DNA from: Butyricimonas sp. Marseille-P3923
Lineage (GTDB): Bacteria; Bacteroidota; Bacteroidia; Bacteroidales; Marinifilaceae
NCBI RefSeq assembly: GCF_900184685.1
Contig: NZ_FXXL01000005.1
Span: forward strand, 496,001 to 560,000
Length of the DNA: 64,000 bases
Direction of reading: 5' to 3'
A program made the translations under genes and the position numbers. Under the pieces are notes generated by a model. That model was not told the DNA's origin and did not search any database. It saw only the letters and a list, made by a program, of their open reading frames with translations. Positions 42,619 to 61,375 of this stretch are shown in pieces (position 1 is the stretch's first letter; every line of letters begins with the position of its first letter).

Positions 42619-43809
42619 TTATTTCTTGATACAATTTTTTATCTCTCTCGTGATATACGCCACATCCTCATCCGTCACGCGAGGACCGGCAGGGATACAC
42701 AAACCCCTCTCGAATAACTTTTCCGAAGTACCATCCACGTAACAAGGATTCCCCGCGAAAACCGGCTGCAGGTGCATAGGCTTCCACAACGGTCGGGTTT
42801 CAATTCCTTTAGCGTCCAAAGCCACACGCACCTCCTCGTGATCTACCCCTGTCACCGCTTTGTCGATCAAAATCGTACACAACCAGTAATTCGCATTAAA
42901 CCGGTTATCGGGATTCGACATCAACTCTATTCCATCCACATCGGCGAATGCCCGCTCGTATAATTCATGCACGTGGCGGTGATGAGCCACATGCTCGTCC
43001 AATACTGTCATCTGTCCCAAACCGATCCCGGCACAGATATTACTCATCCGGTAATTGTAACCGATCTTCTCGTGCTGGTAATAAGGATACGGTTCCCGTG
43101 CCTGCGTGGCGTAGAACATCACCTTCTTCTTTGACTCCTCGTCCGGACAAACCAATGCTCCTCCTCCCGAGGTTGTTATCATCTTGTTCCCGTTAAAACT
43201 CAACGCCCCGTACAACCCGAAAGTCCCGCACTTTTGTCCCTTATATTCCGAACCCAATGCCTCGGCAGCATCTTCCAGTACCGGAATGTCATATTTCCCG
43301 GCCACCGCACAAATCTCGTCCATCTTCGCCGGCATCCCGTACAGGTGCACCGGAATAATTGCTTTCGGCTTCCGTCCCGTTTTAGCGATCCGGTCTTGTA
43401 TAGCTCTCTCCAACAACACGGGACTCATGTTCCACGTCTCTTCCTCCGAGTCTACGAAAACAGCCGTCGCCCCTTGATATGTCACCGGGTTGGCAGAAGC
43501 GCAAAAAGTGAAACTCTGGCATATCACCTCGTCACCCGCCTGTACCCCCAACAATATCAACCCCAAGTGCAAGGCCGCCGTCCCCGCACTCAATGCCACC
43601 ACCTGCTTCCCTTCATTTTCAACTCTCAACTTTCCATTTTCAATTGCTTGTTCTCCACTTCCAATCAAAAAATCCCGCAGTGATTTTTCAAAAGCGTTCA
43701 CGTTTGGTCCCAAGGGCACTACCCAATTCGTGTCAAACGCTTCTTTAATAAAATCCTGTTCCTTGCCGCTCATGTGCGCCAAACAAAGATAAATTCGTTC
43801 CCTTTTCAT
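42619..43809 (-). CDS. DegT/DnrJ/EryC1/StrS sugar aminotransferase, PglE-like, with a repeat-derived insertion
   Basis: 396 residues from the ATG at 43809. The start IYLCLAHMSGKEQDFIKEAF followed by DTNWVVPLGPNVNAFE is characteristic of the PglE/bacillosamine-type enzymes, which add a 4-amino group to UDP-4-keto-6-deoxy-GlcNAc with glutamate and PLP. PLP lysine is Lys209 in SFNGNKMITTSGGG. Between SLRDFLIG and VVALSAGTAALHLG there is an extra segment of about 19 residues (51-69) not expected in the family, encoded by sequence resembling a Bacteroidetes intergenic repeat. The frame remains open. Confidence 0.88.
   Translation of the reverse strand: MKRERIYLCLAHMSGKEQDFIKEAFDTNWVVPLGPNVNAFEKSLRDFLIGSGEQAIENGKLRVENEGKQVVALSAGTAALHLGLILLGVQAGDEVICQSFTFCASANPVTYQGATAVFVDSEEETWNMSPVLLERAIQDRIAKTGRKPKAIIPVHLYGMPAKMDEICAVAGKYDIPVLEDAAEALGSEYKGQKCGTFGLYGALSFNGNKMITTSGGGALVCPDEESKKKVMFYATQAREPYPYYQHEKIGYNYRMSNICAGIGLGQMTVLDEHVAHHRHVHELYERAFADVDGIELMSNPDNRFNANYWLCTILIDKAVTGVDHEEVRVALDAKGIETRPLWKPMHLQPVFAGNPCYVDGTSEKLFERGLCIPAGPRVTDEDVAYITREIKNCIKK
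43603..43659 (-). repeat. Repeat-like insertion inside the aminotransferase gene
   Basis: The coding strand here includes AATTGAAAATGGAAAGTTGA followed by GAGTTGAAAATGAA, translated IENGKLRVENE. These words are ones I know from intergenic repeats in Bacteroidetes genomes, and they fall exactly where this family normally has a short loop. Confidence 0.6.
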
Positions 43810-43916
43810 GCAAAAATCTCTTGAACACACCCTTCCGGTCAAGACATAACAACCACGTCTTCACTCCCGCGAGTGCCCTATTGATAAATAAAACTTATGA
43901 TTATACTACGAAATAT

Positions 43917-44507
43917 TCAATTCCCCAACAAGACCTCTCCATGACCGGGATATAAATCCCGCCCCTCCGCGACTTTCAAAATCGCCTCCACGGATCGGGC
44001 TGCATCTTGTTTGTTGCTACGTGGGAAAGTAGTTATTACCTTCACTTCCGGTATAAAAGAATCGCCCGTGAATATCTCTCCCCTCGTGTAATAAGTCAAG
44101 CAACTCTTGTCATGCCCGGGCGTCTCCAACACTGTCAAAAATTCCCCGGGAAATAGCTCCACCTCATCTCCATCATGCACAACTCTCACATGATCCCCCT
44201 TAAACACGATCGGATCATCATGATACTTCGAAAAATTCAACTTATCCGAATAAATTCCTTCCATTCCCGCTTCCGACGTGTACACCACGGATCGCAGGAA
44301 CAAATCGACCATCCGGTTAATCCCGTACAAATGATCATAATGCGTGTGGGTTAGAAAAATACCTCGAATCGTCACCCCTTCCCCGATAGCCTCCAACACC
44401 GGAGCGACATCTCCCGCGTCCACCAACCAACACCAATCTGCCCCTTCCTCCCGCAACACGTATGTATTGGAACTAAAAACCGTATTTACGATCTGCACAA
44501 TCTCCAC
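43917..44507 (-). CDS. MBL-fold metallo-hydrolase (glyoxalase II-like)
   Basis: 196 residues, cytoplasmic. The metal-binding motif THTHYDHLYGINR gives His54, His56, Asp58 and His59; a further His sits in LETPGHDKSCL and a last in DLYPGHGEVLLG. This is the small hydroxyacylglutathione hydrolase-like subgroup of thioester or ester hydrolases. Its position beside polysaccharide genes may be incidental. Substrate unknown. Confidence 0.9.
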   Translation of the reverse strand: MEIVQIVNTVFSSNTYVLREEGADWCWLVDAGDVAPVLEAIGEGVTIRGIFLTHTHYDHLYGINRMVDLFLRSVVYTSEAGMEGIYSDKLNFSKYHDDPIVFKGDHVRVVHDGDEVELFPGEFLTVLETPGHDKSCLTYYTRGEIFTGDSFIPEVKVITTFPRSNKQDAARSVEAILKVAEGRDLYPGHGEVLLGN

Positions 44508-46580: not shown

Positions 46581-46583
46581 AGA

Positions 46584-46905: not shown

Positions 46906-46973
46906 TTAAAGCAAACTACGTTTTTTGCCTCTCCATCCAATCAACGAAACGTGATCCACGTACCACGTACTAT
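46906..46973 (-). pseudogene. C-terminal fragment of a sugar-transferase gene
   Basis: Directly after the HEPN stop, one frame reads DINSTWYVDHVSLIGWRGK and stops soon after. WYVDHVS is the conserved end region of priming sugar transferases and is identical here to that of the intact gene at 47713. The DNA shares an exact 18-bp match, ACGTGATCCACGTACCAC at 46949-46966, with 47828-47845. It looks like a leftover from insertion or recombination. Confidence 0.55.
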
Positions 46974-47655: not shown

Positions 47656-47712
47656 AACTACACTAAGTATATATTGCAAAGATAAACTTATTTCACGAAA
47701 AAAACAACATAC

Positions 47713-48330
47713 TCAATTCGTCCCGTCAAAAGGAACTGTTGTAGCTTCTCCCTCCTTCGAAACTCCATCACGACAAATTATTGTTTTAATTGCAAGAAAA
47801 AATATTTTTAAATCAAGCATGAATGACACGTGATCCACGTACCACACATCCATCTCAAATTTTTTCAACCACGTGTTATTATTTCTCCCGTTGACACCAG
47901 CCCAACCAACAATTCCAGGTCTCACTTCGTGTCGTCTTGCTTGTTCCGATGTATAAAATGCCAAATATTTAGCCGGAAGAGGACGGGGACCTATTAACGC
48001 CATATCTCCTTTCAACACATTTACCAACTGGGGTAACTCATCTATTGATAATTCTCTCACAATCCGTCCCACGGGTGTTAACCTATCTGCATCAGGAAGT
48101 AATACTCCGCTTTCATCCGTTCTATCACTCATTGTTTTGAATTTCAAAATCTTAAACAACTTCCCCCTATATCCCGAACGTGTCTGCACAAAAAATATCC
48201 CATGCAAATTCTGGTGTGCTATTAGTAATAAAATAGCAATAATACATAAAAATGGGATTAAAACGCATAAGGCTATCAAGGCTATCACAAAATCCATCCC
48301 CCTTTTAACGAAAGACACGTACACGCTCAT
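47713..48330 (-). CDS. Priming sugar-1-phosphate transferase (PglC/WcaJ C-terminal type)
   Basis: 205 residues, the short form with one N-terminal re-entrant/membrane helix (FVIALIALCVLIPFLCIIAI) and the catalytic domain: LFKILKFKTMSD, SIDELPQLVNVLKGDMALIG and PRPLP. It transfers a sugar phosphate from a UDP-sugar to undecaprenyl phosphate and so starts repeat-unit assembly. The PglC-sized form, with a PglE-like aminotransferase and a NeuD/PglD-like enzyme in the locus, suggests a di-amino-sugar as first residue. It overlaps the PIG-L gene by four bases; its 3' end carries one copy of the 18-bp direct repeat. Confidence 0.92.
   Translation of the reverse strand: MSVYVSFVKRGMDFVIALIALCVLIPFLCIIAILLLIAHQNLHGIFFVQTRSGYRGKLFKILKFKTMSDRTDESGVLLPDADRLTPVGRIVRELSIDELPQLVNVLKGDMALIGPRPLPAKYLAFYTSEQARRHEVRPGIVGWAGVNGRNNNTWLKKFEMDVWYVDHVSFMLDLKIFFLAIKTIICRDGVSKEGEATTVPFDGTN
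47828..47845. repeat. 18-bp direct repeat, copy in the sugar-transferase gene
   Basis: ACGTGATCCACGTACCAC is identical to 46949-46966. The two copies bracket the HepT/MntA module and the last 115 bases of the sugar-transferase gene. Confidence 0.8.
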
Positions 48331-49004
48331 CTTATATCACGTATTAACATGAATGCTTCAGCTCTAGGATAAGAAACCGTTGCACCTCTATATTTTGCCA
48401 ACGCTTCCATCGCCTCAATTGAACGAGAGGACGGAAATTCTCGTATTTGGGATTTGAAAAACCTCATCGCAACACATTTTGCATTGAACTCTTCCTCTGT
48501 CAACTCCACAAATACATTAGGTATAAATGCCTCTGATTGATACGGAACTCCCCACTCGGTTTCCGACAAAGTTTCATAAGCGTAAACTCTTTTCACAGAA
48601 CAGTTATTCACGGGACGACAAGCAACAAGTGTCGCATCAAAAACCGCCTTATGATCTTTATGTATATCACCACGATGTGGAACAAAAACAGTATCAAATT
48701 GATACTTCTGAATAAGTTCTGACAATGCAGTCGCTATTTTGTAAGAAGGAAACGTATCTAACCTTGGCGCAGGAAAATCCATAAAAAAAGTATCTTCCAC
48801 ACCCAAGGCTCGATGTGCTGCTAATGCTTCATTCCTCACGTTTTGTATCCCTTCCAGAAGATATCTTTCCGGATCTCCCACGTGAGCGTTAGTCACAATC
48901 AAAACATATGTTTCGCTCCCATTATTTACCATCTTTTTCATTACTCCACCACAGCCCAAGACTTCATCATCCGGATGCGGAGCTACTACTAACACTTTTT
49001 TCAT
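48327..49004 (-). CDS. PIG-L family deacetylase
   Basis: 225 residues from the ATG at 49004. The zinc site is seen in VVAPHPDDEVLGCGG and HRGDIHKDHKAVF. This LmbE-like family removes N-acetyl groups from GlcNAc-type sugars or related compounds. In a locus rich in acyltransferases it would free an amino group for a different acyl chain, which is inference. Two bases separate it from the upstream acetyltransferase-like gene and it overlaps the sugar transferase by four. Confidence 0.9.
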   Translation of the reverse strand: MKKVLVVAPHPDDEVLGCGGVMKKMVNNGSETYVLIVTNAHVGDPERYLLEGIQNVRNEALAAHRALGVEDTFFMDFPAPRLDTFPSYKIATALSELIQKYQFDTVFVPHRGDIHKDHKAVFDATLVACRPVNNCSVKRVYAYETLSETEWGVPYQSEAFIPNVFVELTEEEFNAKCVAMRFFKSQIREFPSSRSIEAMEALAKYRGATVSYPRAEAFMLIRDIR

Positions 49005-49006
49005 AC

Positions 49007-49957
49007 TTAATATATATCTGAATCCCCGTAAGAATAATACCAATTTTTAAATTCAGTCAACACGTCACTTAAAGACTCATCAAACACTCTCACTCCTAAG
49101 AAGGTTTGTTTACCACCCAATACAAAACCATTTTTCTCGTAATAAATATGTCGCCGATCAAAAAGAGAAAGCCACGTGTGTACACTTGATATTTTTAAAT
49201 CAAAAGAAGCAATAATGTGTGAAAGAAACTCGGGTAGCAAAGAGATGTTCTCCATAGCGATTCCATTTTCAACAATAAACGCCCCATATGAGCCATCCGC
49301 CATCGGGTACAATTTAACGACTAAAAAACCTGACAAGACAGAATCTCGATGTTCAAAAATATAATATTTATTAAAAGGGTTTTCTTTATACCTCCAATTC
49401 AAATAATCCACTGATTGATTCAAGGAAACACGGAAAGCAGAAGTTATTTGTTTTAATAAATCCGAATGAGATTGATCAAAAGTTTCCATCCTCGTTATCA
49501 TGGGTGATAAGCAAGGTTTTATACTAGATGTCTCCAACACCAAATGATGAATAACGGCCAAATCTCTCCAACTCAAATTCTTGATAAAACCATAGTGAGA
49601 ATTCTTATTGGGAAATCCCATAACGCATTTCGTATCGTATTTTTGGGCGATAAACGAGTACAACTCTTCCGCCAAAGTCTTGAATATCCCTTTCCCGCTG
49701 TAGTCAGGATGAGTCATTGTTGTCATAGAAAGAGATGCTTGCGTTATCTCATTATCTACCACAAATTGAAAAGGACTCACGGCATAATGTCCAATCAACA
49801 ACTCTTTTTCCCACATTAATTTTATATAGTACTTCCCCACTGGATTCCGTTCGAAGCGCCACCGCCAATATTGTTCCCGCATTGGTTTCCCGAAAGTCAA
49901 TTCAAACAAATGCAATATAGCCTTTTCATCCCCAGTTTGGTAATCTCTTATTTCCAT
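49007..49957 (-). CDS. GNAT-fold N-acyltransferase
   Basis: 316 residues. The N-terminal half is a GNAT domain (RDYQTGDEKAILHLFELTFG, then MTHPDYSGKGIFKTLAEELY as the CoA-binding loop); the second half repeats a related fold (SLNQSVDYLNWRYKENPFNK). Such double-GNAT proteins occur in polysaccharide and lipid modification loci. A natural job is moving an acyl group, perhaps from one of the nearby acyl carrier proteins, to a sugar amine; this is inferred from context. Confidence 0.75.
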   Translation of the reverse strand: MEIRDYQTGDEKAILHLFELTFGKPMREQYWRWRFERNPVGKYYIKLMWEKELLIGHYAVSPFQFVVDNEITQASLSMTTMTHPDYSGKGIFKTLAEELYSFIAQKYDTKCVMGFPNKNSHYGFIKNLSWRDLAVIHHLVLETSSIKPCLSPMITRMETFDQSHSDLLKQITSAFRVSLNQSVDYLNWRYKENPFNKYYIFEHRDSVLSGFLVVKLYPMADGSYGAFIVENGIAMENISLLPEFLSHIIASFDLKISSVHTWLSLFDRRHIYYEKNGFVLGGKQTFLGVRVFDESLSDVLTEFKNWYYSYGDSDIY

Positions 49958-50002
49958 TGATACTTCAATTATTTTATGTCAACATAATTTCACAATCATG
50001 TT

Positions 50003-50455
50003 TTACTTTACTAATTTACCCTTATTAATAATTTGAGTTTTATCACTTATTTCTATACCCGTACGAACTACTCTAGCCGGATTCCCCGCTATCAAACAAT
50101 GACTAGGAAAACTTTTAGTAACAACACTTCCTGCCCCCACAAACACATGATCTCCAAGAGAAACTCCAGGAAGAATTATTGCCCTTCCCCCTATTACGCA
50201 ATGTTTACCAATATACGTATCACACCACATTTTTTCCTTTCCTCTAGAATAATCATGAGCTATAATCATCACTCCCAAAGCTACTCGAGTTCCGTCACCA
50301 ATGTGTACACCCTTAGGATGTGCGCGATCAATAAGAGCTCTCCAAGATATTTGACAATTTTTTCCAATATCAACACCTCTTATTTTCCGCAAATACACTC
50401 CATATGAATGATTTATCACTCGACTAATTTTTTGTCTAAAAGATAACTTAGCCAT
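50003..50455 (-). CDS. Left-handed beta-helix O-acyltransferase (WbbJ/maa type)
   Basis: 150 residues. Hexapeptide repeats run through the centre (IGKNCQISWRALID, VHIGDGTRVALG, GKHCVIGGRAIILPG, GDHVFVGAGSVVTKSFP), with catalytic His in IAHDYSRG. It would transfer an acetyl or short acyl group to a sugar hydroxyl. One base separates it from the KAS III gene. Confidence 0.85.
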   Translation of the reverse strand: MAKLSFRQKISRVINHSYGVYLRKIRGVDIGKNCQISWRALIDRAHPKGVHIGDGTRVALGVMIIAHDYSRGKEKMWCDTYIGKHCVIGGRAIILPGVSLGDHVFVGAGSVVTKSFPSHCLIAGNPARVVRTGIEISDKTQIINKGKLVK

Positions 50456-50456
50456 A

Positions 50457-51518
50457 TTATTTTACTTTTATCAAATCCGAAACAACCATCGGTTGTGTTT
50501 TCATCCACATCGTTCCCCAAGTCAACCCTAATCCAAAAGATGACATCAACAAACTCTTCTCTGCAGTCATCAATTGCTCCCGCAAACGTGTTACCATCAA
50601 AGAAGGAATAGAAGCTCCACCCAAGTTTCCAAATTCTTCCAAATTATATGGTACTTTTTCCAAGGGCAATTTCAATTTCTTCACGATTCTGTCTACGATC
50701 ATCTTGTTCGCCTGATGAATCAAAAAATAATCCACATCATTATCCCTGTTTATCTTGTAATCCGCCATAAAAGCCTCTATCGACTTGGGAGGTTTGGAAA
50801 TTGCAAACGAGAACACGTTCATACCGTTTATCAACGTGTGTATGGGAGCTCGAACAATCCCGTTCCCAAAATCCTCGTACTCGAAAGACTCCCTCGTGAT
50901 CGGCTGACGGAATCCCCCGTGTGGGGTCATCAGAGCCTCGTACCCTTTCCCATACGTGTGAAAGTCGACCACGATATCATTCGCTGTCGGATCATATTCC
51001 AAAGCCATCGCCGTTCCACAATCCCCGAATAACGGAACTCTACTCTTATCCTTCATGGAGCCCATCCGCAAAGCCGTATCCCCGACAAGTAACAACGCCC
51101 GCTTCACGTTACCGGAAGACAACAAATTTCCACCTGTTGTGATTGCATACATGCAACCACAACATCCCATCGGGATATCCATCGAAAAACAATTCTCCGA
51201 AAATCCCAACCGATCTTGCAACAAGCATGAAGTTGGAGGAGTTTTATAATCACCCGTTACTGATTCGAATATCAAAACATCAACGCTCTCCCGCTCCCAT
51301 TTAAGGTCTGCCAATAGTTGTTCCGCCGCGGCAAAACACAAATCAGACGCACAAACATCATCGGGGGCAATATGCCTCTGTTTGATACCGACAGTATTAT
51401 TAAACACCTCAGCATCTTCCGGGGTAAAAAACTCGAAATCCGTCGTGTGAACCACGTTCCGGGGAACAGCAGCAGCCACTCCCGCCACCTTCACGTTTTT
51501 AATTTCCCACCTTGCCAT
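50457..51518 (-). CDS. Ketoacyl-ACP synthase III, copy 1
   Basis: 353 residues, thiolase fold. Nucleophile Cys119 in DIPMGCCGCMYAI, His in FLIHQANKMIVD and Asn in NLGGASIPSLM complete the Cys-His-Asn triad. KAS III enzymes condense a starter acyl-CoA with malonyl-ACP. Unlike housekeeping FabH it lies with its own ACP, AMP ligase and reductases inside a polysaccharide locus. The second copy at 56117 differs strongly around the active site (ISYGCSGYMYGL), so the two probably take different substrates. Confidence 0.92.
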   Translation of the reverse strand: MARWEIKNVKVAGVAAAVPRNVVHTTDFEFFTPEDAEVFNNTVGIKQRHIAPDDVCASDLCFAAAEQLLADLKWERESVDVLIFESVTGDYKTPPTSCLLQDRLGFSENCFSMDIPMGCCGCMYAITTGGNLLSSGNVKRALLLVGDTALRMGSMKDKSRVPLFGDCGTAMALEYDPTANDIVVDFHTYGKGYEALMTPHGGFRQPITRESFEYEDFGNGIVRAPIHTLINGMNVFSFAISKPPKSIEAFMADYKINRDNDVDYFLIHQANKMIVDRIVKKLKLPLEKVPYNLEEFGNLGGASIPSLMVTRLREQLMTAEKSLLMSSFGLGLTWGTMWMKTQPMVVSDLIKVK

Positions 51519-51532
51519 AAGTTCTAACGTGT

Positions 51533-51766
51533 TTAAATTTCAACCCCGTATTTGCACAATATCTCTTTACCCGCCTTGTAAGACGTGAATCCCATGATAT
51601 CTTCCAGCTCGAACATGACATCAAACGATTCTTCCAATAAAGCGACTATATTTAACTGATGAACCGAATCCCATTCTTTCACATTGTCTTTTGAAAAATC
51701 ATCATTTAAAACACTTTCTGTCACGCCAAATACTTCCACAAACACCTTGTTATATTTTTGCTCCAT
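51533..51766 (-). CDS. Acyl carrier protein, copy 1
   Basis: 77-residue acidic helical protein. The phosphopantetheine serine lies in EWDSVHQLNIVALLEE (DSV instead of DSL). It should carry growing acyl chains for the adjacent KAS III and AMP ligase. Fourteen bases separate it from the KAS III gene and eight from the ligase. Confidence 0.88.
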   Translation of the reverse strand: MEQKYNKVFVEVFGVTESVLNDDFSKDNVKEWDSVHQLNIVALLEESFDVMFELEDIMGFTSYKAGKEILCKYGVEI

Positions 51767-51774
51767 TTTTTTAC

Positions 51775-53175
51775 TTATTGGTTATTCAATTGACTATATA
51801 AAACTTTCCCCACTCTATTTCGGGGTATCTCAGATATAATTCGCACTTCAAAAGCTGATGCCACAATACCAGTTTTTTCAACCAACTCCCCTTTCACCAA
51901 CCCAGCTAACTGCGCATTTGTGATATAAACTATCATCTTTGCATCCGTTCCCACGCATGCACATTCAACCGGGAATGCAGCTCTTACGATTTGCTCACAT
52001 TCATCAAGCCCAACCCGCATCCCATAAAGTTTTAAGAATCGTCCCGTACGCCCCACGATATAATAAAACCCATCATCATCCCGATAAGCCAAATCTCCCG
52101 TCTTCAAACATCCCTTTCGTTCATCTCTCAACGCCAAATCCTCCTTACACAAAGCATACCCCAAAGTTACATTCCTCCCCCGATAACACAACTCCCCTTC
52201 TTTGTGACTTTCCTTAACTAATTGTCCTTCCGAATCTATCAAAAATAGCTCCCCGTTAGGTACCGCTTTCCCGATACTCCCACATTTCGACAAGGCATAT
52301 TCCGGCGGCAAATAAGCCATCCTAGCCGTCCCTTCCGTCTGCCCATAGGTGGCGATCCAACGTTTTCCGGTCTTTTGGACATACTCCACGAACTGAAGAT
52401 TCAATTCCTTCGACAACTTACCTCCCCCTTGCGTCAACAACTCCAAATCAGGTAAATCCATTTTGAAAAAACGCATCAAACGTAAAATCTCGTAACTATA
52501 TGGTACCCCTGTGAAACTCGTCGCTTTCCGCTCTTTCAAAAAAGTCCAAAACTCTCTTTGTGTCATGCTCAAATCCGTGATCAAAATTGTAGCTCCCACG
52601 TACAAATGACTAAAAACGACTGATAACCCCATCGTATAATACAAGGGCAACACAAGCAAAGGACGATCACTTTTCTTCAACTGGAAAAAAGTAGATATAT
52701 TCAATGCAGACGCTTCCACATTTTCATAACTATGTCGCACCAACTTGGGACTGCCAGTGGAACCTGATGTGGGTAGCAAATGTGACAACTGTTCGTAAAC
52801 AGGACTGCCGGTTTCTCCCGTCTTTAACAAAAAATACCCCCAACGCTCAAGTTTACACTCCAAATCAAATCGACCGCAATCTTTATTCGAAACACAAATA
52901 TACTCCGGTTTGTATAAAACACGCAACTGCTCCAATAGTTCTCTGTCAATCTTGGGATTTAAAAACAAGGGTACAATTTCTGCCGCTATGCATCCCATGC
53001 CCCAAGCAACTCCCCCTATCTCATTGCCAACTAGCACGAACACCAGAGAACGGGCAGGTAACACACTTCCCAACTCGTGTGTAAAAGCCACCAGATTCCC
53101 GTACGTCAACTTTTCCCCGGCAGAATCTACTACCGCCAAAGAATTCGTATCCTGCCTGTCTATATTTAAAATCAT
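51775..53175 (-). CDS. AMP-dependent acyl ligase (ANL superfamily)
   Basis: 466 residues. A3 phosphate loop LPTSGSTGSPKLVRH, A5-type region ATYGQTEGTARMAYLPPEYA (first part ATYGQTEG), A7 LKTGDLAYRDDDGF, A8 GRTGRFLKLYGMRV and a C-terminal Lys in PRNRVGKVLYSQL. It activates a carboxylate as an adenylate and loads it on CoA or an ACP. Shorter than acetyl-CoA synthetases, like ACP-loading ligases of polyketide clusters. It may supply or recycle the acyl starter. Confidence 0.9.
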   Translation of the reverse strand: MILNIDRQDTNSLAVVDSAGEKLTYGNLVAFTHELGSVLPARSLVFVLVGNEIGGVAWGMGCIAAEIVPLFLNPKIDRELLEQLRVLYKPEYICVSNKDCGRFDLECKLERWGYFLLKTGETGSPVYEQLSHLLPTSGSTGSPKLVRHSYENVEASALNISTFFQLKKSDRPLLVLPLYYTMGLSVVFSHLYVGATILITDLSMTQREFWTFLKERKATSFTGVPYSYEILRLMRFFKMDLPDLELLTQGGGKLSKELNLQFVEYVQKTGKRWIATYGQTEGTARMAYLPPEYALSKCGSIGKAVPNGELFLIDSEGQLVKESHKEGELCYRGRNVTLGYALCKEDLALRDERKGCLKTGDLAYRDDDGFYYIVGRTGRFLKLYGMRVGLDECEQIVRAAFPVECACVGTDAKMIVYITNAQLAGLVKGELVEKTGIVASAFEVRIISEIPRNRVGKVLYSQLNNQ

Positions 53176-53181
53176 AATATT

Positions 53182-53940
53182 TTATATTGAGGCACAACCG
53201 TCAACACCAAGCACTTGACCGGATACATAAGAAGCTCTATCCGAAGCCAAAAAAGCACAAGCGTTAGCCACATCATCCGGTTCTCCTAAACGCCCAAGTG
53301 CAATTCTCTTGATCCGCTCGTCAATTTTCTCTCCCGAGGATTCGTACAACTCCGCGAATCGCTCTGTTTTTACAATTCCCGGGGCAACTGCATTCACCCT
53401 TATTCCCGCAGGAGCCAACTCTTTAGCTGCTGATTTTGTCAGGGCTATAATAGCCCCTTTCGTGGCAGAATAGGCAACCTGTCCCGGAGAACCCAGCACA
53501 GCCGTAACGGACGCCATATTTATGATGGAACCGTTTTTATTACGTGCCATCAGACGAGATACCAATTGTATCATCTCGATCACGGCAATCACGTTAATCC
53601 TGAACATGAGTTCCGTTTCCGGTCTGGATATCATGCCTAATTTTTTATTAAACACGACTCCGGCATTATTCACCAATACGTCAATTCTCCCCGCCTCTTT
53701 ATTTATCGACATGAAACTATTCTTAACCCCAGCAGCATCCGTGACATCAAAATACACGGGAGTTACTTTCGTTCCATGTTTCGCGGCGCAATCATTTGAC
53801 CATTCGTCCATACTACCTGTTTGTACATCGCAAGCATACACGATAGCCCCGTCTGCGGCAAACTGTTCAGCGATAGCCTTACCTATTCCTTGTGCAGCAC
53901 CGGTAATAATACAAACTTTATTTTGTAATAATTTCTCCAT
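53182..53940 (-). CDS. SDR reductase (FabG-like), copy 1
   Basis: 252 residues from the ATG at 53940 (a start at 53997 would lie inside the upstream gene). Rossmann motif TGAAQGIGKAIAEQF, NNAGV at about 90, catalytic Ser and YSATKGA with Tyr/Lys; closes with the C-terminal SGQVLGVDGCAS typical of FabG relatives. Reduces 3-ketoacyl-ACP to 3-hydroxyacyl-ACP. Six bases follow the AMP ligase. Confidence 0.9.
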   Translation of the reverse strand: MEKLLQNKVCIITGAAQGIGKAIAEQFAADGAIVYACDVQTGSMDEWSNDCAAKHGTKVTPVYFDVTDAAGVKNSFMSINKEAGRIDVLVNNAGVVFNKKLGMISRPETELMFRINVIAVIEMIQLVSRLMARNKNGSIINMASVTAVLGSPGQVAYSATKGAIIALTKSAAKELAPAGIRVNAVAPGIVKTERFAELYESSGEKIDERIKRIALGRLGEPDDVANACAFLASDRASYVSGQVLGVDGCASI

Positions 53941-53945
53941 AAACA

Positions 53946-54704
53946 CTAGCTTAAAGTCATTCCCCCGTCTATCTTTAAAGCCGTTCCGGTTATCCACGAG
54001 GCAGCATCAGACAATAAATATACAATAGCATGGGCTATATCCTGCGGCGTTCCATACCTTCTTAACGGGTAATTCAACAATTCTTTTTGACGTTGTTCTT
54101 CTGTGAATTGACCATTGTTAATCAAATTAGTCTCCACCATACCGGGATTTACACTGTTACATCTTATCCCTTTAGGACCGAGCTCCAACGCCACGGTTCT
54201 CATAAAAGCGTCAATTCCACACTTGGTGGTTGCATAAATCCCATTCCCGATAGAAACACGATACACCCCACCGGCAGAAGCCGTGAATACAAAAGAAGTT
54301 CCTTTTCTTACTTTTTTCTTTTTCACGAGATATTTTGTCAATAACATCGGCGCTATCAGATTTATACGTTGAATCCTTTCGATCTCTTCGACCGTGATGA
54401 ATTGAGTCAAGGTAAGTTTCATAACTCCTGCATTACAAACACACCCGTCCAAATTCGGCACGAAATCTACCAAATCTTCAATTTCCCGTTCCTCTATGAG
54501 ATTAGCTTTATAGCAAGAATGTTTCTGCCCGTTATCAGTATCAAGAGAGGCTAAAGTTTCCTTTAAGCCCTCTTCATTGATATCTGTCAAGACCAAGCCG
54601 GCCCCCATTCGGGAGCACTCTATCGCAGTCGTGCGCCCGATTCCCCCGGCAGCTCCTGTTACCAAAATAATCTTCCCTTTAAGACTATATGGATTATAAC
54701 TCAT
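53946..54704 (-). CDS. SDR reductase (FabG-like), copy 2
   Basis: 252 residues. TGAAGGIGRTTAIE, CNAGVMKL and YATTKCGIDAF give the NAD(P) loop and Tyr-Lys pair; the end reads WITGTALKIDGGMTLS. Divergent from copy 1, so it may act on a different chain length or keto group. Five bases precede its start from the ACP gene. Confidence 0.9.
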   Translation of the reverse strand: MSYNPYSLKGKIILVTGAAGGIGRTTAIECSRMGAGLVLTDINEEGLKETLASLDTDNGQKHSCYKANLIEEREIEDLVDFVPNLDGCVCNAGVMKLTLTQFITVEEIERIQRINLIAPMLLTKYLVKKKKVRKGTSFVFTASAGGVYRVSIGNGIYATTKCGIDAFMRTVALELGPKGIRCNSVNPGMVETNLINNGQFTEEQRQKELLNYPLRRYGTPQDIAHAIVYLLSDAASWITGTALKIDGGMTLS

Positions 54705-54709
54705 GAATG

Positions 54710-54934
54710 CTATTTTTTTGCTAATACTTTATTATATAAATCTTCTATCGTGAGCGCTTCTCGAATATCCTCACCGTTAAGCACGACATCATATTCCTCG
54801 TCAATCATAGAAATTAACGCCAAAGCGATCAAAGAAGACCATTCATCCAATTCCCGAAATTTAGTGTTAGGTCTGAATACATCAGGAGCCGTTTCTTCAA
54901 ACAACTCTATAAATTTTTCAATAAAATTCTTCAT
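54710..54934 (-). CDS. Acyl carrier protein, copy 2
   Basis: 74 residues. The carrier serine is in DEWSSLIALALISMIDEEYD; the usual Asp of DSL is replaced by Ser. It is close in sequence to copy 3 (same ALxxISMIDEE pattern), indicating a tandem duplication. Confidence 0.85.
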   Translation of the reverse strand: MKNFIEKFIELFEETAPDVFRPNTKFRELDEWSSLIALALISMIDEEYDVVLNGEDIREALTIEDLYNKVLAKK

Positions 54935-54944
54935 CTCTCTCTTT

Positions 54945-55181
54945 TTATCGGGTTTGTATTAAATCGTACAATTCTCTAATCGTTGATACGGAACGTAAGT
55001 CTGCACCTGTAAGAAACTTATCAAATTCTTCATCAATCATGGATATGATCGAAAGTGCTACCAAAGACCCCCATTCGTCTAATTCTTTATAAACTGTCTC
55101 CTCAGTAAAGTTATCAGCGGGAGTTTCATCAAACTCAGAAGCAAATTTTTCAACAAATTCATTTAAAGAAATCATATTCAT
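54945..55181 (-). CDS. Acyl carrier protein, copy 3
   Basis: 78 residues. Carrier serine in DEWGSLVALSIISMIDEEFD, with Gly in place of the DSL aspartate. Paralogue of copy 2. Its start overlaps the malonyltransferase stop by four bases, suggesting coupling of malonyl loading to this carrier. Confidence 0.85.
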   Translation of the reverse strand: MNMISLNEFVEKFASEFDETPADNFTEETVYKELDEWGSLVALSIISMIDEEFDKFLTGADLRSVSTIRELYDLIQTR

Positions 55182-56107
55182 ATATTATTTAAAGGTTTAT
55201 ATTGTTTATAAGTAGGTATAGACCAGATCATGTCCACTTTTTTATTAGGGTACATGCGAGCGACTATTTTTTGTAATGTATCATCCGGTCCGACCTCATA
55301 AAAATCCGTTACGCCAGCATCTACCATATTATGAACCATTTGAGTCCATTGCACCGGGTGAGTTATATGCTCTATAAGATTACTCTTTATTTCTTCCGGA
55401 TCTGAATGCATTTTCCCATCAACACATTGACAAACAGGAACTATAGGCGTATTAAAAATAGTTTTATCGATTTGCTTTTTCAACTCAAAACGGGCTTCTT
55501 CCATGTATGGAGTATGAAAACTACCTCCAATCATTAAAGGTACGGCTTTTTTTGCCCCCTCTTTCACGAAAGCTTTACAAGCCAACCTAACGCCCTTTTT
55601 AGAACCTGAAATTACAACTTGACCAGGGCCATTATAGTTTGCGAAATAAATTGGTTCACCTGTTTCATTCCAAATCTCTTTAATTCTTCTAGCGACATAT
55701 TCATCAGTAAGCCCTATTACCGCACCCATCGCAGTATTTGTATTTTCACATGTTTTTTGAGCTATCAATGCCCTATGTAATACCAAATTCAATCCATCTT
55801 CAAAACTAATTGTACCATTTACGACTAAAGCAGCAAATTCACCAAGAGAATGTCCGGCAACAACATCCGGCATTACATCATCTTGAACTAAAGCTAAAGC
55901 TACTTCATACAAAAAAATTGCAGGTTGTGTATTTTGAGTTTCCATCAATTGCTGCTCTGTCCCATAAAACATAGTATCGGTTATTTTTCTTCCTAAAAAC
56001 TCATTACCATGTTCAAAAATCTCTTTGGCTTTAGGGAAATTATCATATAACTCTTTTCCCATCCCTTCTCTTTGGCAACCTTGACCTGGAAAAATAAAGG
56101 CATTCAT
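55178..56107 (-). CDS. ACP S-malonyltransferase (FabD-like)
   Basis: 309 residues. Nucleophile Ser87 in VAGHSLGEFAAL, entry motif FIFPGQGCQREGMGKEL, and catalytic His in IGGSFHTPYME. It charges an ACP with malonate from malonyl-CoA. A dedicated FabD inside the cluster makes the set independent of housekeeping fatty-acid synthesis. Confidence 0.92.
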   Translation of the reverse strand: MNAFIFPGQGCQREGMGKELYDNFPKAKEIFEHGNEFLGRKITDTMFYGTEQQLMETQNTQPAIFLYEVALALVQDDVMPDVVAGHSLGEFAALVVNGTISFEDGLNLVLHRALIAQKTCENTNTAMGAVIGLTDEYVARRIKEIWNETGEPIYFANYNGPGQVVISGSKKGVRLACKAFVKEGAKKAVPLMIGGSFHTPYMEEARFELKKQIDKTIFNTPIVPVCQCVDGKMHSDPEEIKSNLIEHITHPVQWTQMVHNMVDAGVTDFYEVGPDDTLQKIVARMYPNKKVDMIWSIPTYKQYKPLNNI

Positions 56108-56116
56108 AAATTACAA

Positions 56117-57154
56117 CTATTTTAAATCTTGGTTAATTGGCCTATAGATATTAGTTTCTGAAAGATCGCATGCAATACTTCCCCATGACAACCCGACCCC
56201 ATAAGCCGCTAGTACTATTTTTTTCCACGTTGTTGTGTCGATTCCAAGCCCCTTGTGAGCATAATCTGTTATAACCAAAGGTACCGTCGTAGGTCCAGTA
56301 TTTCCATAGTTTTTAATATTGAAAGGTGCCTTATTTTCACTAATCTTAAGTTTCTTCTTCATGAAATCCAAAGTGAATTTTGTTGCCTGATGTAAAGCAT
56401 AAAGATCGACCTCATCTTTATCCCACTTCATAAATTCCAAGATTGTTTTAATGCTCTTCGTTCCACATGATACAATAAAAGCGAAAACATCATCTCCTTT
56501 ATTTGCATTTTTGCTAAAATCCTGTTTTTGAGCGTTACTAGGCCAATGACGAAATCCTCCATTCACATTAATCACCGTGTCTGCCCCGGAACCATCCGAG
56601 CATAAATGAAAGCCCATGAAAGAATCACCAACAGAAACCAAAGTTGCAGACCCACAATCACCAAAGACCATTCTAGCACCAAGATTATTGGGATTCAATA
56701 TTTTAGTATTTGTATCACCAGCCATCAACAATACATGCTTGCAAGCTCCGGAATGAATCATTGAAGCAGCTTGAAATAAACCATACATGTAACCGGAACA
56801 ACCATAAGAAATATCAAAACAAATAGTTTCTTTCGACAATCCCAAACGATGTTGTAAAACCACAGATGTAGCTGGATATAAATAATCAAATGTTTGAGAA
56901 ACAAACACGACCCCATCTATTTCATTCCTATCAATACCTTCATTCTTAATTAAAAGTTCCGCAGCCTCGAAACACATATCAGATGTCGTCTGAGAATGAT
57001 CCGCAACGTGGACTCTTTCCACACCCGTTGTCTTTTTCACATTGTCGATCTCTTTTACCCCGTGTTTCTCCTTCAAACTATCCATTTCAAAACACCCTTG
57101 AGGAAGACAAGTAGCTATTGCCCTAACCCTTACATCATTTATTAAGCACTTCAT
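56117..57154 (-). CDS. Ketoacyl-ACP synthase III, copy 2
   Basis: 345 residues. Nucleophile Cys119 in DISYGCSGYMYGL, His in LHQATKFTLDF and Asn in NYGNTGPTTVPL. The substrate-pocket residues differ from copy 1. If copy 1 makes acetoacetyl-ACP and a reductase then makes 3-hydroxybutyryl-ACP, this enzyme could perform a second extension, or the reverse order. Nine bases after the malonyltransferase gene. Confidence 0.92.
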   Translation of the reverse strand: MKCLINDVRVRAIATCLPQGCFEMDSLKEKHGVKEIDNVKKTTGVERVHVADHSQTTSDMCFEAAELLIKNEGIDRNEIDGVVFVSQTFDYLYPATSVVLQHRLGLSKETICFDISYGCSGYMYGLFQAASMIHSGACKHVLLMAGDTNTKILNPNNLGARMVFGDCGSATLVSVGDSFMGFHLCSDGSGADTVINVNGGFRHWPSNAQKQDFSKNANKGDDVFAFIVSCGTKSIKTILEFMKWDKDEVDLYALHQATKFTLDFMKKKLKISENKAPFNIKNYGNTGPTTVPLVITDYAHKGLGIDTTTWKKIVLAAYGVGLSWGSIACDLSETNIYRPINQDLK

Positions 57155-57165
57155 TCCTTTATAAT

Positions 57166-57900
57166 TTAACTGATTGATTGTCCTCCGTCAATAATTAACT
57201 CAATTCCCGTGATCCACTTACCCGCATCAGATAAAAGATAGACACACCCGTAAGCAACATCGTCCGTTCTCCCAAACCCTAGAGGTATTGATGATTCAAC
57301 CTTGGACATCTCTTCTTCTGAAAAATTACTAACCGGTTTTGTCCTAATTATACCCGGTAGAATCGAATTTACCCTTATACCTTTATTCCCATACTCCAAA
57401 GCCATCACTCTAGCGAAAGAATTAATCGCTCCCTTCGTCGCAGAATAAAGGGAATTTCCCTTGTAAGGTTTTATGGAAGCTAGTGAAGAGATAAAAACTA
57501 TTGAGGCTCCCTTATTTATCTTACCTTCATTAAACAAATGCTTTATCAGTGTTATATTTGAAAAAACATTAATCATGAATATTTCCTCTGTTTTTGCAAA
57601 AGAATTATACTTTACCGGGAGCGTTTTCACCATCCCGGCGCATAACACAACGCCATCAAGCAAAGGAAGTTGTCTCACAAAATCTATAATTAATTCTTCC
57701 TTGGATAAATCGCATATTAATTGCATATTCTCATTACCAACTAAAGAATCGCATACTTCACTCAATCTGTCATTATCACGTCCCGTGATAATCATCCTTC
57801 CTCCAGCTTCTGCACATTTTATCGCAATCCCTTTTCCTATACCAGAAGATGCTCCCGTAACAAGTATCGTTTTTCCTTCCAATGGATAAACTAGATTCAT
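57166..57900 (-). CDS. SDR reductase (FabG-like), copy 3
   Basis: 244 residues from the ATG at 57900 (a GTG at 57915 is less likely). TGASSGIGKGIAIKC, LCAGMVKTLP (instead of NNAG) and YSATKGAINSFARV; ends WITGIELIIDGGQSIS. Third reductase of the cluster, eleven bases before the KAS III gene. Confidence 0.9.
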   Translation of the reverse strand: MNLVYPLEGKTILVTGASSGIGKGIAIKCAEAGGRMIITGRDNDRLSEVCDSLVGNENMQLICDLSKEELIIDFVRQLPLLDGVVLCAGMVKTLPVKYNSFAKTEEIFMINVFSNITLIKHLFNEGKINKGASIVFISSLASIKPYKGNSLYSATKGAINSFARVMALEYGNKGIRVNSILPGIIRTKPVSNFSEEEMSKVESSIPLGFGRTDDVAYGCVYLLSDAGKWITGIELIIDGGQSIS

Positions 57901-57920
57901 TATCTTTATTTTCACAATAA

Positions 57921-58553
57921 TTAAACATCTATTTTTTTCGCAGGGTTCCCATGCACAGTTGTTCCTGTTTTCACACGGCGTATAACAAAACTACAAGCCC
58001 CGACTTGAGCGTTATCTTCTACAATTACTCTATGATTTAAAACAACAGAGGTATGTATTATCGTTTCATTCCCTATTCTTATCCCTCCGATACAAACGAC
58101 ACGCGTATCTATCCTGTTCCAATCACCAATAACGACATCATGTCCTACTATCGTATAATTCTGTATCAAATTATAATCGCCAATAATCGAGTCTGCACCA
58201 AAAGCAACATATGGACCAATTACATTACCTATTCCTAATTTTACGTTTGTTCCGACTCGCACTGTTGAATGAATAATATTAATAAATATTCCCCTCTTAC
58301 GTAGTATTTTTTCACAACACATCTTCTTTGCATTTCCTCCCATTGAGCACGTAAAAACATCGTCAATTTGAGGCATATACTCATCAACGGAACCTAACAC
58401 GGGCGGATAACCTTCATAAACATCCAATGCATTTAGATTATCATCTATAAAACCTTTTATAACAAACTCGTCCCCATATCCTGTACTTTCTCTCACCCAG
58501 TCATAAAATGTCCGCCCCATTCCTCCTGCACCAATGATTATTAAATCTTTCAT
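57921..58553 (-). CDS. NeuD/PglD-like sugar O/N-acyltransferase
   Basis: 210 residues. N-terminal nucleotide-sugar binding half with IIGAGGMGRTFYDWV, then left-handed beta-helix repeats (VRVGTNVKLGIGNVIGPYVA in part, GDWNRIDTRVVCIGG, NETIIHTSVVLNH) and catalytic His region YTIVGHDVVIGDW. PglD relatives acetylate the C4 amine of UDP-4-amino sugars. Because it opens the acyl cassette, it could instead use an ACP-bound hydroxyacyl chain; that is inference. Confidence 0.88.
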   Translation of the reverse strand: MKDLIIIGAGGMGRTFYDWVRESTGYGDEFVIKGFIDDNLNALDVYEGYPPVLGSVDEYMPQIDDVFTCSMGGNAKKMCCEKILRKRGIFINIIHSTVRVGTNVKLGIGNVIGPYVAFGADSIIGDYNLIQNYTIVGHDVVIGDWNRIDTRVVCIGGIRIGNETIIHTSVVLNHRVIVEDNAQVGACSFVIRRVKTGTTVHGNPAKKIDV

Positions 58554-59881: not shown

Positions 59882-61375
59882 TTAATGATATTTATTCAAA
59901 ATATTTCTTCCCAAACGAACAAACATTTTGGGCAAATATGGAATAATTTTAGGGAATAAATAAAATGTACGCAACTTAAATTCCTTAATTATCAACAAAT
60001 AATAACTCATTATCTCCCTCTTTCGAAAAATACAATAACGCTTTTCCAACAACTCATAATCAATAAAGACCTCTTGCAATAGTATATCTTGAGGTTGTTG
60101 CTTCGCCTGAACAATTTGTTTAAGGCCAACGTCAAAACGCTCTTGCGTCATCAAATATTTATTCAAACACGCACCTATATATTCACGATATATGCGATCA
60201 TTAATCAATTTCCCAGCTTCTCTATAGAAATCATCTAAATTATCGTAAGCTAAACGATACTCTCCAAATTCATCACCTAAATGCCTATCATCAATATTTA
60301 AATCATTCTCTAATTTTTCTGTAGAGGTATAAGCTAATACAGCTTTTTTATTACTAATTGCATAATCCCTCATTAGTCCCCCTCCAATAGGATAGGTTTG
60401 TAAGAATAAATCAACATGCCTAAATACTTCATTTATATCTCTTCTATATTCCAATAAAATCAACCTCTCTTGAAGTTTATTAGCGATTACAAACTTTTTT
60501 AATACACTATTATTATCTCTAGCAGCAAATAAAATAACTAATGCAGGATTCGCTATTAATAGCCTTTTCATTATATAAAAAAATGTATAATCTTTATCCA
60601 TAACTTTATACATTCTACAACCTGTAAACATCAAAACAGTATCTTTTTTTATATGACTAGGAAATCCTTCAAAATCATTCTCATCAATAATCGGATAATA
60701 AGGCAATTTAAAAATATTTGCTTTGTTAAAAAACCTTCTTTGAAAAGATAATGTATATCCCCAATTTCTAAATTCTATAATATAATTAGTGCAATCAATT
60801 CCAGGCCAATATTGATGATCCCCTAGATTAATCCTATATTTATCTATAATATTAATTTTATACAAAACTAAAACATCTGCTAAGGAAAACGATGAATGGA
60901 GGAAAATTTTTTCTGGTTTAAAATCTTTTATCCACTGATAAATCAACTTTGCATGTTCTGAAAATTTTCTATTCTTCGGTATTTCAGATATTTGGGAATT
61001 TGGGTAAAGTTGAAGTTCTTTATATATTTGAGTATGCCATGCTTTTTTAGAAGTATCTTGAGTCCTGATATATAAAATATTTGCTCCCATTGCCATCAAC
61101 GCCCTTATATATTGCTGTGTTATACCATGATTATCCCATGACAAAGAGTCGCAAAACACATAATTATTTTTTATTGGCTCATACTCCATTTCTTTGGGGA
61201 ATAGCATATTAGATATCTTTTTTAAAATAACGTCTATACTCTTATTCCCAAAATCAACGCTAAAACTTTTTAGAAAATATACAATTCTCAACTTACATAA
61301 TGCCTTATCAAAATTCTTATTTTTGATATCTTTTTCTACTTGAATAATTACTTTTTCCGCGATACAATCCGACAT
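59882..61375 (-). CDS. Glycosyltransferase-like protein (GT-B), low similarity
   Basis: 497 residues. A C-terminal Rossmann half is visible: VLMFTGCRMYKV, ILLEYRRDINEVFRHVDLFL and TYPIGGGLMRDYAISNKKAV resemble GT-B donor sites of SPINDLY/GT41-like enzymes, with an N-terminal GITQQYIRALMAMGANILYI segment. No membrane segment. Very AT-rich. It overlaps the polymerase gene by 28 bases. Function as a repeat-unit glycosyltransferase is inferred from fold and place. Confidence 0.7.
   Translation of the reverse strand: MSDCIAEKVIIQVEKDIKNKNFDKALCKLRIVYFLKSFSVDFGNKSIDVILKKISNMLFPKEMEYEPIKNNYVFCDSLSWDNHGITQQYIRALMAMGANILYIRTQDTSKKAWHTQIYKELQLYPNSQISEIPKNRKFSEHAKLIYQWIKDFKPEKIFLHSSFSLADVLVLYKINIIDKYRINLGDHQYWPGIDCTNYIIEFRNWGYTLSFQRRFFNKANIFKLPYYPIIDENDFEGFPSHIKKDTVLMFTGCRMYKVMDKDYTFFYIMKRLLIANPALVILFAARDNNSVLKKFVIANKLQERLILLEYRRDINEVFRHVDLFLQTYPIGGGLMRDYAISNKKAVLAYTSTEKLENDLNIDDRHLGDEFGEYRLAYDNLDDFYREAGKLINDRIYREYIGACLNKYLMTQERFDVGLKQIVQAKQQPQDILLQEVFIDYELLEKRYCIFRKREIMSYYLLIIKEFKLRTFYLFPKIIPYLPKMFVRLGRNILNKYH

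Follow-up and report, generated by a model that had tools for sequence, protein, structure and literature searches.

A putative starter-loaded, polyketide-like acyl cassette in the capsule loci of Butyricimonas sp. Marseille-P3923

Gene sets for the addition of short hydroxyacyl chains to the sugars of surface glycans are already known, in their general kind, from other bacteria. In Flavobacterium psychrophilum, for example, the O-polysaccharide carries a 3,5-dihydroxyhexanoyl group on the amino sugar Qui2NAc4N, and the genes wfpC to wfpG have been proposed to make and transfer this acyl group (PMC6519341). In Pseudomonas syringae, the genes vioS, vioR, acp, and vioB belong to a proposed pathway for N-(3-hydroxybutyryl)viosamine, whose mutants were checked by mass spectrometry, and the deletion of vioR led to the loss of the modified sugar (PMC3927599). 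The flagellin glycosylation islands of enterobacteria carry Acp, LuxE, LuxC, a CaiC ligase, and FabG (PMC4875605). The present analysis concerns a cassette of acyl assembly genes from Butyricimonas sp. Marseille-P3923, located in a stretch of 64,000 nucleotides (the window, positions 496001-560000 of contig NZ_FXXL01000005.1, or C3, of a 5.3 Mb genome), in which a separate enzyme for the loading of the starter unit seems to be the new feature.

The gene content, catalytic residues, conservation, and linkage of this cassette lead us to infer, with a probability of roughly 0.55, a type II polyketide-like pathway that would be loaded with a starter and extended with malonyl units, and would yield, for the repeat unit of the capsule, a short hydroxyacyl chain in N-linkage to a nucleotide sugar of the 4-amino-4,6-dideoxy type, with UDP-Qui2NAc4N as the most likely candidate. 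The genes involved, which include β-ketoacyl synthases of type III (KAS III), acyl carrier proteins (ACPs), short-chain dehydrogenases/reductases (SDRs), a malonyl-ACP transacylase (MAT), and an AMP-forming ligase (LIG), are located in the window as follows:

57921..58553, minus strand: NeuD/PglD-type N-acyltransferase (NeuD), with PglD_N and Hexapep (Pfam), proposed to pass the chain from acyl-ACP to the 4-amine of the nucleotide sugar
57166..57915, minus strand: SDR1, FabG-type ketoreductase (adh_short_C2; N/S/Y/K present)
56117..57154, minus strand: KAS1, KAS III of a rare lineage (ACP_syn_III and ACP_syn_III_C; Cys-His-Asn kept)
55178..56107, minus strand: MAT, dedicated FabD-type malonyl-ACP transacylase (TIGR00128; S92, R117, H201)
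54945..55181, minus strand: ACP1, of the MAT-adjacent type (WGSL; profile match to solved ACPs)
54710..54934, minus strand: ACP2, general carrier of such loci (PP-binding just under the cut-off; profile match to solved ACPs)
53946..54704, minus strand: SDR2, FabG-type ketoreductase (Pfam, NCBIfam, N/S/Y/K tetrad)
53182..53997, minus strand: SDR3, ligase-associated FabG-type ketoreductase (Pfam, NCBIfam, tetrad; with its GTG start as listed, the gene shares 52 bases with SDR2)
51775..53175, minus strand: LIG, AMP-forming ligase, proposed starter loader (AMP-binding, 146.5 bits; motifs conserved in 38 orthologues)
51533..51766, minus strand: ACP3, ligase-bound carrier, proposed to carry the starter (profile and structure model match ACPs)
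50457..51518, minus strand: KAS2, member of the ligase-linked KAS III clade, proposed to act as the condensing enzyme in elongation (Pfam, Cys-His-Asn, tree)
50003..50455, minus strand: small hexapeptide-repeat acyltransferase, perhaps for O-acetyl groups (Hexapep_2; the top three NCBIfam matches are O-acetyltransferases, all below the cut-off)
49007..49957, minus strand: GNAT protein (Acetyltransf_9, 43.9 bits; no NCBIfam match)
48327..49043, minus strand: PIG-L/BshB-like de-N-acetylase (PF02585, 95.4 bits)
47713..48330, minus strand: PglC-like sugar-1-phosphate transferase, which would start the repeat unit (PF02397, 190.8 bits)
43917..44507, minus strand: hydrolase of the metallo-β-lactamase (MBL) fold, possible thioesterase (Lactamase_B; mainly in loci that contain the loader)
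42619..43842, minus strand: PglE/LegC-type aminotransferase (PF01041, 306 bits; TIGR04181, 363 bits against a cut-off of 420)

The cassette is transcribed from the minus strand in the order NeuD-SDR1-KAS1-MAT-ACP1-ACP2-SDR2-SDR3-LIG-ACP3-KAS2-hexapeptide-GNAT-PIG-L-PglC-like, with all the frames open. Over the whole run, which extends from NeuD (57921) as far as the PglC-like gene (47713), neighboring genes are spaced by -52 to +45 bases. The initial annotation, made from the letters alone, had described the two KAS III, three ACPs, malonyltransferase, three SDRs, and AMP ligase as intact and co-directional, which is borne out by the Pfam and NCBIfam matches, the profiles and model of the ACPs, and the catalytic residues. 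The deacetylase, GNAT protein, beta-helix acyltransferase, and NeuD/PglD-like enzyme that it saw as the frame of this set are also recognized by Pfam. Its observation that a dehydratase and an enoyl reductase are missing holds for the locus proteins scanned with Pfam and NCBIfam, among which neither a dehydratase nor a dedicated enoyl reductase was found, and the set does not pass for a type II fatty acid synthase, in which these two would occur with KAS I/II. The SDRs do match a Pfam family with enoyl reductase in its name, yet carry the FabG tetrad.

In the proposed pathway, MAT would place malonyl on ACP1/ACP2, while the AMP ligase would adenylate a short acid, for which acetoacetate and 3-hydroxybutyrate are possible candidates, and load it on ACP3, where SDR3 may set the oxidation level of the starter. 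KAS2 would then condense the acyl-ACP3 with malonyl-ACP, and the 3-keto group would be reduced by SDR2, with a further or alternative round being provided, potentially, by KAS1 and SDR1. Given that no dehydratase was recognized in the locus, the chain would stay hydroxylated, with a predicted length of about C4 to C8. NeuD would transfer this chain from the ACP to the 4-amine produced by the PglF/PglE route, the PglC-like enzyme would load the sugar on the lipid carrier, and Wzx, Wzy, Wza, and Wzc would complete and export the capsule.

By description, the window shares with wfpC-wfpG, together with wfpB, pglE, and pglF, the presence of two KAS III, a dedicated ACP, a ketoreductase, a PglD homologue, PglC, and PglE, as well as the proposal that a hydroxyacyl chain carried on an ACP is used to N-acylate UDP-Qui2NAc4N. 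In F. psychrophilum, however, one ACP and one reductase are named, and neither a ligase nor malonyl appears in the main text (PMC6519341), whereas the window has three ACPs, three SDRs, a ligase, and a malonyltransferase, set in an UpxY-type capsule locus, with two copies per genome. A KAS III, a ketoreductase, an ACP, and a VioB-type transferase are common to the window and the vioA/vioB/vioS/vioR/acp genes of P. syringae, although that island differs in its seven genes, single KAS III, dTDP sugar, and flagellin glycan, and no ligase or malonyltransferase is listed for it (PMC3927599). The enterobacterial islands also have an ACP, an acyl ligase, and FabG within a glycan locus, but KAS III is not among the fatty acid synthesis genes listed in the passage cited (PMC4875605), while LuxE and LuxC were not seen in the window cassette. 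By gene content, wfpC-G and vioS/R/acp/vioB are the published precedents. Searches of the open-licence literature in PubMed Central turned up neither a fitting account of hydroxybutyryl groups or ACP genes for a capsule of Bacteroides, nor a duplicated set with three ACPs, MAT, and loading by a ligase.

Related loci were retrieved by scanning named genomes with an alignment of KAS2, and the best 80 of 557 by KAS2 similarity were retained, so the shares given here are not frequencies. Together with the window, the second copy of the cassette on contig C5, and seven hand-picked loci (L160-L166), these loci form a set of 89, with L187-L194 standing outside all its counts. A ligase locus is defined as one in which LIG scores more than 500 bits (n = 38 of 89), and the flanks were counted in the 63 loci whose sequence extends 3.5 kb or more past the KAS genes, 32 with the ligase and 31 without it, L128 and L164 being the same contig, counted twice among the latter. 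Gene orders disregard unannotated genes.

The identity of KAS2 is at least 59% in 38 of the best 80 loci, whose titles name Bacteroidales families or a "Bacteroidales/Bacteroidia bacterium", many of them from the gut or rumen. LIG is present in 35 of these 38 loci, and the other three (L052, L058, L085) end at a contig edge beside KAS2. The window, C5, and L163 bring the number of loci with LIG to 38. ACP3 accompanies LIG in all 38 of these KAS2-selected ligase loci (L068 was read directly), and SDR3 is present in 36, the other two (L060, L063) also ending at a contig edge. The order SDR3-LIG-ACP3-KAS is found in 31 of the 38, or 32 when L068 is counted, within a broad common order of NeuD-ACP-(KAS)-SDR2-SDR3-LIG-ACP3-KAS2-(hexapeptide)-PglC-(MBL)-PglE. 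Several glycan genes flank the ligase loci more often than those with no ligase, including NeuD (25/32 vs. 18/31), PglC (25/32 vs. 7/31), PglE (18/32 vs. 5/31), and PglF (5/32 vs. 2/31), and the MBL hydrolase, at more than 200 bits, is present in seven of the 32, in comparison with one of the 31 others with full flanks. MAT occurs in five of the 32 ligase loci with full flanks, and also in L188. It directly adjoins an ACP1-type ACP in the window, L079, L119, and L188, and is one gene apart from it in C5, whereas no such ACP lies beside it in L073. The identity of ACP1 to the MAT-neighbor ACPs of L079 and L119 is 59% and 61%.

The loci recovered through KAS2 also include gene sets of other composition. 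A Rieske-type ring-hydroxylating oxygenase is found in Flavobacterium KAS III/NeuD loci (for example, L089:11053-12138, checked with Pfam), in nine of the 31 non-ligase loci and none of the 32 ligase loci, which suggests oxidized acyl chains in those Flavobacterium loci. In a locus with three KAS III from a Phocaeicola metagenome-assembled genome, a MaoC-type dehydratase (L108:11032-11466) lies beside the MBL gene, and relatives of the cassette therefore need not all keep their chains hydroxylated. L160, a Flavobacterium locus from the hand-picked group, shows one KAS III only.

A search based on LIG, at E<=1e-90, matched this genome and seven others among 393 sampled from the order, and the full cassette is present in two of the seven, G1029 (L191) and G1062 (L193). 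Three relatives, G796 from this search together with G014 and G691, favor the view of LIG-ACP3 as a separate loading module. G796 (L187) has the order GT-NeuD-SDR3-LIG-ACP3, where GT is a glycosyltransferase; PglC and PglE are also present, but 20 kb of sequence contain no KAS III, and the only KAS III match in this genome, which is 86% complete, has 28% identity and lies on another contig. In G014 (L194), the order is aminotransferase-NeuD-ACP-SDR-KAS-FkbH-ACP3-like-MBL, in which FkbH (289 bits, against a cut-off of 146.65) occupies the position of LIG, and the ACP3-like protein has 73 residues, no Pfam match, and 50 bits to the ACP3 profile. FkbH proteins load glycerate onto ACPs. In G691 (L188), the order is NeuD-MAT-ACP1-SDR-KAS-ACP'-ligase', with a ligase and an ACP of another type, and further ligase variants are found in L098, L100, and L161.

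More distant ligases were also encountered. In G1020, G759, and G780, LIG has 45-47% identity and is accompanied by weaker ACP3-type genes (74-81 bits), with a split transketolase and/or LuxE/LuxC. Relatives of LIG with an ACP3-like ACP are found in L189, L190, and L192, together with LuxE/LuxC (L189, L192) and/or a split transketolase and an SDR (L190, L192). These gene sets may represent an unexplained glycan-linked acyl or aldehyde pathway, and L189, L192, and L098 pair ligase-type genes with LuxE/LuxC as the enterobacterial islands do.

The nature of the acceptor is indicated by NeuD, which has the PglD_N domain and left-handed beta-helix fold, with a Gly-His-Asp set that is invariant in 17 of 17 aligned proteins, and which scores 132.2 bits to TIGR03570, below the cut-off of 160.8. 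The best AlphaFold model of this protein has a pLDDT of 95.0 (the five models span 69.7-95.0), and its best 21 structure matches are PglB, VioB, PerB, Pcryo_0637, WeeI, PglD, and one putative transferase of C. jejuni, with WlbB, a 3-amino enzyme, being far lower (TM 0.29). A search for the NeuD subfamily (E<=1e-45) in the 393 genomes of the order matched five others, in all of which the gene adjoins ACP, SDR, KAS, LIG, or MAT genes, and such a neighbor lies within 400 bases in 34 of 34 cases in the loci fetched, which were selected mainly via KAS2. A PglF-type protein is present in the same locus in L058, L059, L066, L072, L074, L160, L163, L166, L188, and L193 (checked with Pfam for L160 and L166). 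The fold and neighbors of NeuD, together with PglC, PglE, and PglF in the relatives, fit a UDP-Qui2NAc4N derivative as the first sugar of the repeat unit, and this is the most likely identity of that sugar. The more general claim of the initial annotation, a hydroxyacyl group on a sugar of the 4-amino-4,6-dideoxy class, is well supported by the same evidence and by the two published precedents. Its label of PglE-like for the aminotransferase at 42619, which would make the amine, is reasonable, but falls short of proof, given that the best model is of the LegC family and is matched with 363 bits rather than the 420 of the cut-off.

The identity of the individual enzymes is consistent with these roles. 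MAT scores 276.2 bits to TIGR00128 (FabD), against a cut-off of 260.9, and a separate FabD-type gene is found elsewhere in the genome, on contig C1. In alignments, the N/S/Y/K catalytic residues are present in all three SDRs, and the P-loop and C-terminal lysine in LIG. Among solved structures, LIG comes closest to oxalate- and succinylbenzoate-CoA ligases. The alternative of an amino acid-type adenylation domain is unsupported, as these CoA ligases are closer. ACP1 and ACP3 have no Pfam match, and ACP2 reaches 20.1 bits to PP-binding, just below the cut-off of 20.8, but profiles of the orthologues of the window ACPs match solved ACPs, and the model of ACP3 (mean pLDDT 95.9) has a TM of 0.83 to the E. 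coli ACP, and its second long helix opens with the serine. The serine motif is present in 130 of the 130 ACP-type genes annotated in the fetched loci. The structure 2LML, which we take to be GmACP3 of Geobacter metallireducens, is the best solved match of the ACP3 profile and the second-best of the ACP1/2 profile. By the title of a paper by Ramelot from 2011, GmACP3 reportedly has a putative role in lipopolysaccharide biosynthesis.

Both KAS1 and KAS2 have the Cys-His-Asn triad of KAS III. In E. coli FabH, Trp32, Arg36, and Arg151 bind coenzyme A (CoA). The positions of Trp32 and Arg151 are occupied by Asn and Leu in KAS1 and by Val and Lys in KAS2, in an alignment that is uncertain at the N-terminus, and Arg36 is also kept by neither enzyme, while Phe87 is replaced by Thr in 40 of 40 members of the ligase-linked KAS clade. 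The missing residues of the CoA clamp and the Phe87Thr replacement hint at other starters, in a manner that depends on the alignment, and the loss of the clamp weakens the case for a start from acetyl-CoA by the window KAS III, though not to the point of exclusion. In a tree of 63 rows (62 of 143 KAS rows from chosen loci, plus E. coli FabH), the window KAS2 falls within the ligase-linked clade (14 rows, at least 58% identity, SH-aLRT 99), and KAS1 groups with the copies of C5, L100, and L161 (SH-aLRT 99), outside the main flavobacterial alpha KAS clade. A PF00501 AMP-binding enzyme or LIG lies near the KAS1-type gene in all four of these loci. At E<=1e-75, the KAS1 type was found in this genome only, among 395 drawn from the phylum, with weaker kin in L100 and L161.

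The second copy of the cassette provides evidence on its maintenance over time. Contig C5 carries another UpxY locus with the same ten genes, from SDR1 to KAS2, in an identical order, interrupted by a single gene between MAT and ACP1, which encodes a 414-residue protein that reads like a membrane protein, perhaps a polymerase. The proteins of the two copies share 66 to 90% identity, and their genes differ by 6-22% at codon positions 1+2 and by 32-60% at the third. In the four of the ten cassette genes in which the rates were computable, dN/dS is 0.04-0.09, with a dS of more than 1.3, dS being saturated in two others. Both copies have thus diverged for a long time with their proteins kept, under purifying selection. 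Chance association is excluded by the second ordered copy and the ligase cassettes of 36 further loci, and gene decay, like chance, by the two ordered copies, the silent divergence with conserved protein, and the catalytic residues.

A number of observations weigh against the proposed pathway. The sequence of LIG gives no clear indication of its substrate. The linkage of KAS2 and LIG arises partly by construction, given that the loci were selected via KAS2, and in the search based on LIG, an ACP3-type gene lies near it in six of the seven other genomes and a KAS III beside it in only two, which marks the ligase-ACP pair, and not the KAS, as the stable unit. No KAS III was found within the 13-20 kb around LIG in G796, G1020, G759, and G780, and G919 has neither ACP3 nor KAS within the 4.4 kb seen. 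The FkbH case and the KAS-free case were each seen in a single genome, the latter being the incomplete G796. The flavobacterial alpha KAS occurs in none of the 32 ligase loci and in 18 of the 31 others (Fisher p 8e-8), but this mutual exclusion was set aside as proof because only two independent pairs were available in the tree, and the sign test was uninformative. With regard to the acceptor, a PglF-type protein (PF02719) has no match on contig C3 and three long ones on C1, and the RmlA and two FdtA genes upstream indicate a dTDP-linked amino sugar, a possible other acceptor. The C5 locus has no NeuD, and a GNAT protein (L008:9704-10318, PF13302) must serve there if the model is right; the best NCBIfam match of the aminotransferase of that locus is DesI, far below the cut-off.

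The route given in the initial annotation differs in the origin of the chain. It would begin with the condensation of acetyl-CoA and malonyl-ACP by KAS1, to acetoacetyl and then 3-hydroxybutyryl, which KAS2 would extend to 3,5-dihydroxyhexanoyl. If this route is right, LIG and the MBL hydrolase would have no other part than to recycle or proofread chains that have come off the ACPs. The enzyme classes and proposed logic match those of wfpC-G, with its 3,5-dihydroxyhexanoyl product (PMC6519341), and a malonyl-type MAT, the presence of two KAS III in the window and in 14 of the 38 ligase loci, and the MBL hydrolase near such loci would all be in keeping with this route. It is made doubtful, however, by the single KAS III of 23 of the 38 ligase loci (in the stretch seen, some being cut by the contig), the retention of the ligase set in G796, where no dedicated KAS III was found, the FkbH in the place of LIG in G014, the position of KAS1 outside the main alpha clade, and the lack of FabH Trp32 and Arg36 in either window KAS. 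The class of acyl route foreseen by the initial annotation stands, then, but its 3-hydroxybutyryl or 3,5-dihydroxyhexanoyl product is not established, and it assigned no role to the ligase and ACP3, despite their pairing in 38 of 38 loci. The second copy, along with RmlA, FdtA, and the ATP-grasp and GNAT fusion past the end of the window, lay outside its view.

A different acceptor for the same chain is unlikely. This could be glucosamine exposed by PIG-L, acylated through the GNAT or small hexapeptide protein, given that these three genes lie in the same run after KAS2, or the dTDP-3-amino sugar of RmlA and FdtA, the latter being paired with an ACP and KAS III in L111, L114, and L130. Against both stand the conserved proximity of NeuD and its PglD/VioB/PerB-like fold, and the counted stretches of the 32 ligase loci, which contain PIG-L in two cases and FdtA in none, with the FdtA genes of the window locus lying just outside (L010). 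The 3-amino sugar is weakened by these same features of NeuD and FdtA, and no 3-aminotransferase was recognized in the window locus. It is very improbable that the product is a free or lipid-linked small molecule, the genes of which are merely parked in capsule loci. Type II polyketide-like enzymes with a ligase do occur in secondary metabolism, but both copies lie inside capsule loci, the set is flanked by PglC, PglE, NeuD, glycosyltransferase-like, and Wza/Wzc-like genes in many relatives, and no enzyme was recognized that would serve this set alone for release or export.

Both copies of the cassette are found within UpxY-type capsule loci. In the window locus, a GT4 glycosyltransferase, a 497-residue protein, a Wzy-like membrane protein (named by reading, with no Pfam match), and a Wzx-type flippase lie upstream of NeuD, followed, beyond the end of the window, by an ATP-grasp and GNAT fusion, the two FdtA, RmlA, a UpxZ candidate (called by position only, with no family match), and, at the head of the locus, UpxY (NF033644, 157.9 bits against a cut-off of 100). 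Downstream of the PglC-like gene are an inserted block, the MBL hydrolase, the PglE-like aminotransferase, and genes similar to Wza, Wzc, and a Wzb/CpsB-type phosphatase, which were named by reading and by their likeness to the C5 locus.

Other features of this region are recorded here in their own right. The 497-residue protein (59882-61375), whose gene separates GT4 from the Wzy-like gene, was matched by neither Pfam nor NCBIfam and is perhaps an unrecognized glycosyltransferase. The inserted block (44526-47679), which separates the PglC-like gene from the MBL hydrolase, has a low GC content. It includes PADLOC matches to NsnC (44526) and NsnB (45414), as well as two genes (46974, 47365) that resemble a HepT/MNT toxin-antitoxin pair, and other genes occupy this point in the C5 locus. 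Approximately 6.4-6.6 kb past the end of the window (L010:6443-6636), just upstream of UpxY, a single pair of 29-base inverted repeats, 83% complementary and 136 bases apart, represents a possible invertible promoter of the capsule. Farther away in the window are a SusC/SusD-like pair beside two DUF4953 Met-zincin proteins (12648-23741) and a V/A-type ATP synthase subunit with a DUF2764 neighbor (33624-36242).

The diversity of the loaders raises a broader, and more tentative, possibility. A loader with its own ACP, whether LIG-ACP3, another ligase-ACP pair, or an FkbH-ACP pair with glycerate, may act as a combinatorial "starter cartridge" that feeds a shared core of KAS III, SDR, ACP2, and NeuD, in which case the gut Bacteroidales might change the N-acyl group of a bacillosamine-type capsule sugar, a surface antigen, by swapping a module of two or three genes. 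If true, this swap would parallel the change of starter unit in the modular polyketide synthases. The capsules of the gut Bacteroidales are major antigens of the cell surface, and variable ones, whose non-sugar substituents are not easily predicted from the sequence. Should LIG-ACP3 indeed select the first acyl unit, the N-acyl chemistry of these capsules could be legible from the genome by the type of loader, and, should the proposed pathway be true, it would represent a polyketide-like logic at work in the assembly of surface polysaccharides, rather than in secondary metabolism.

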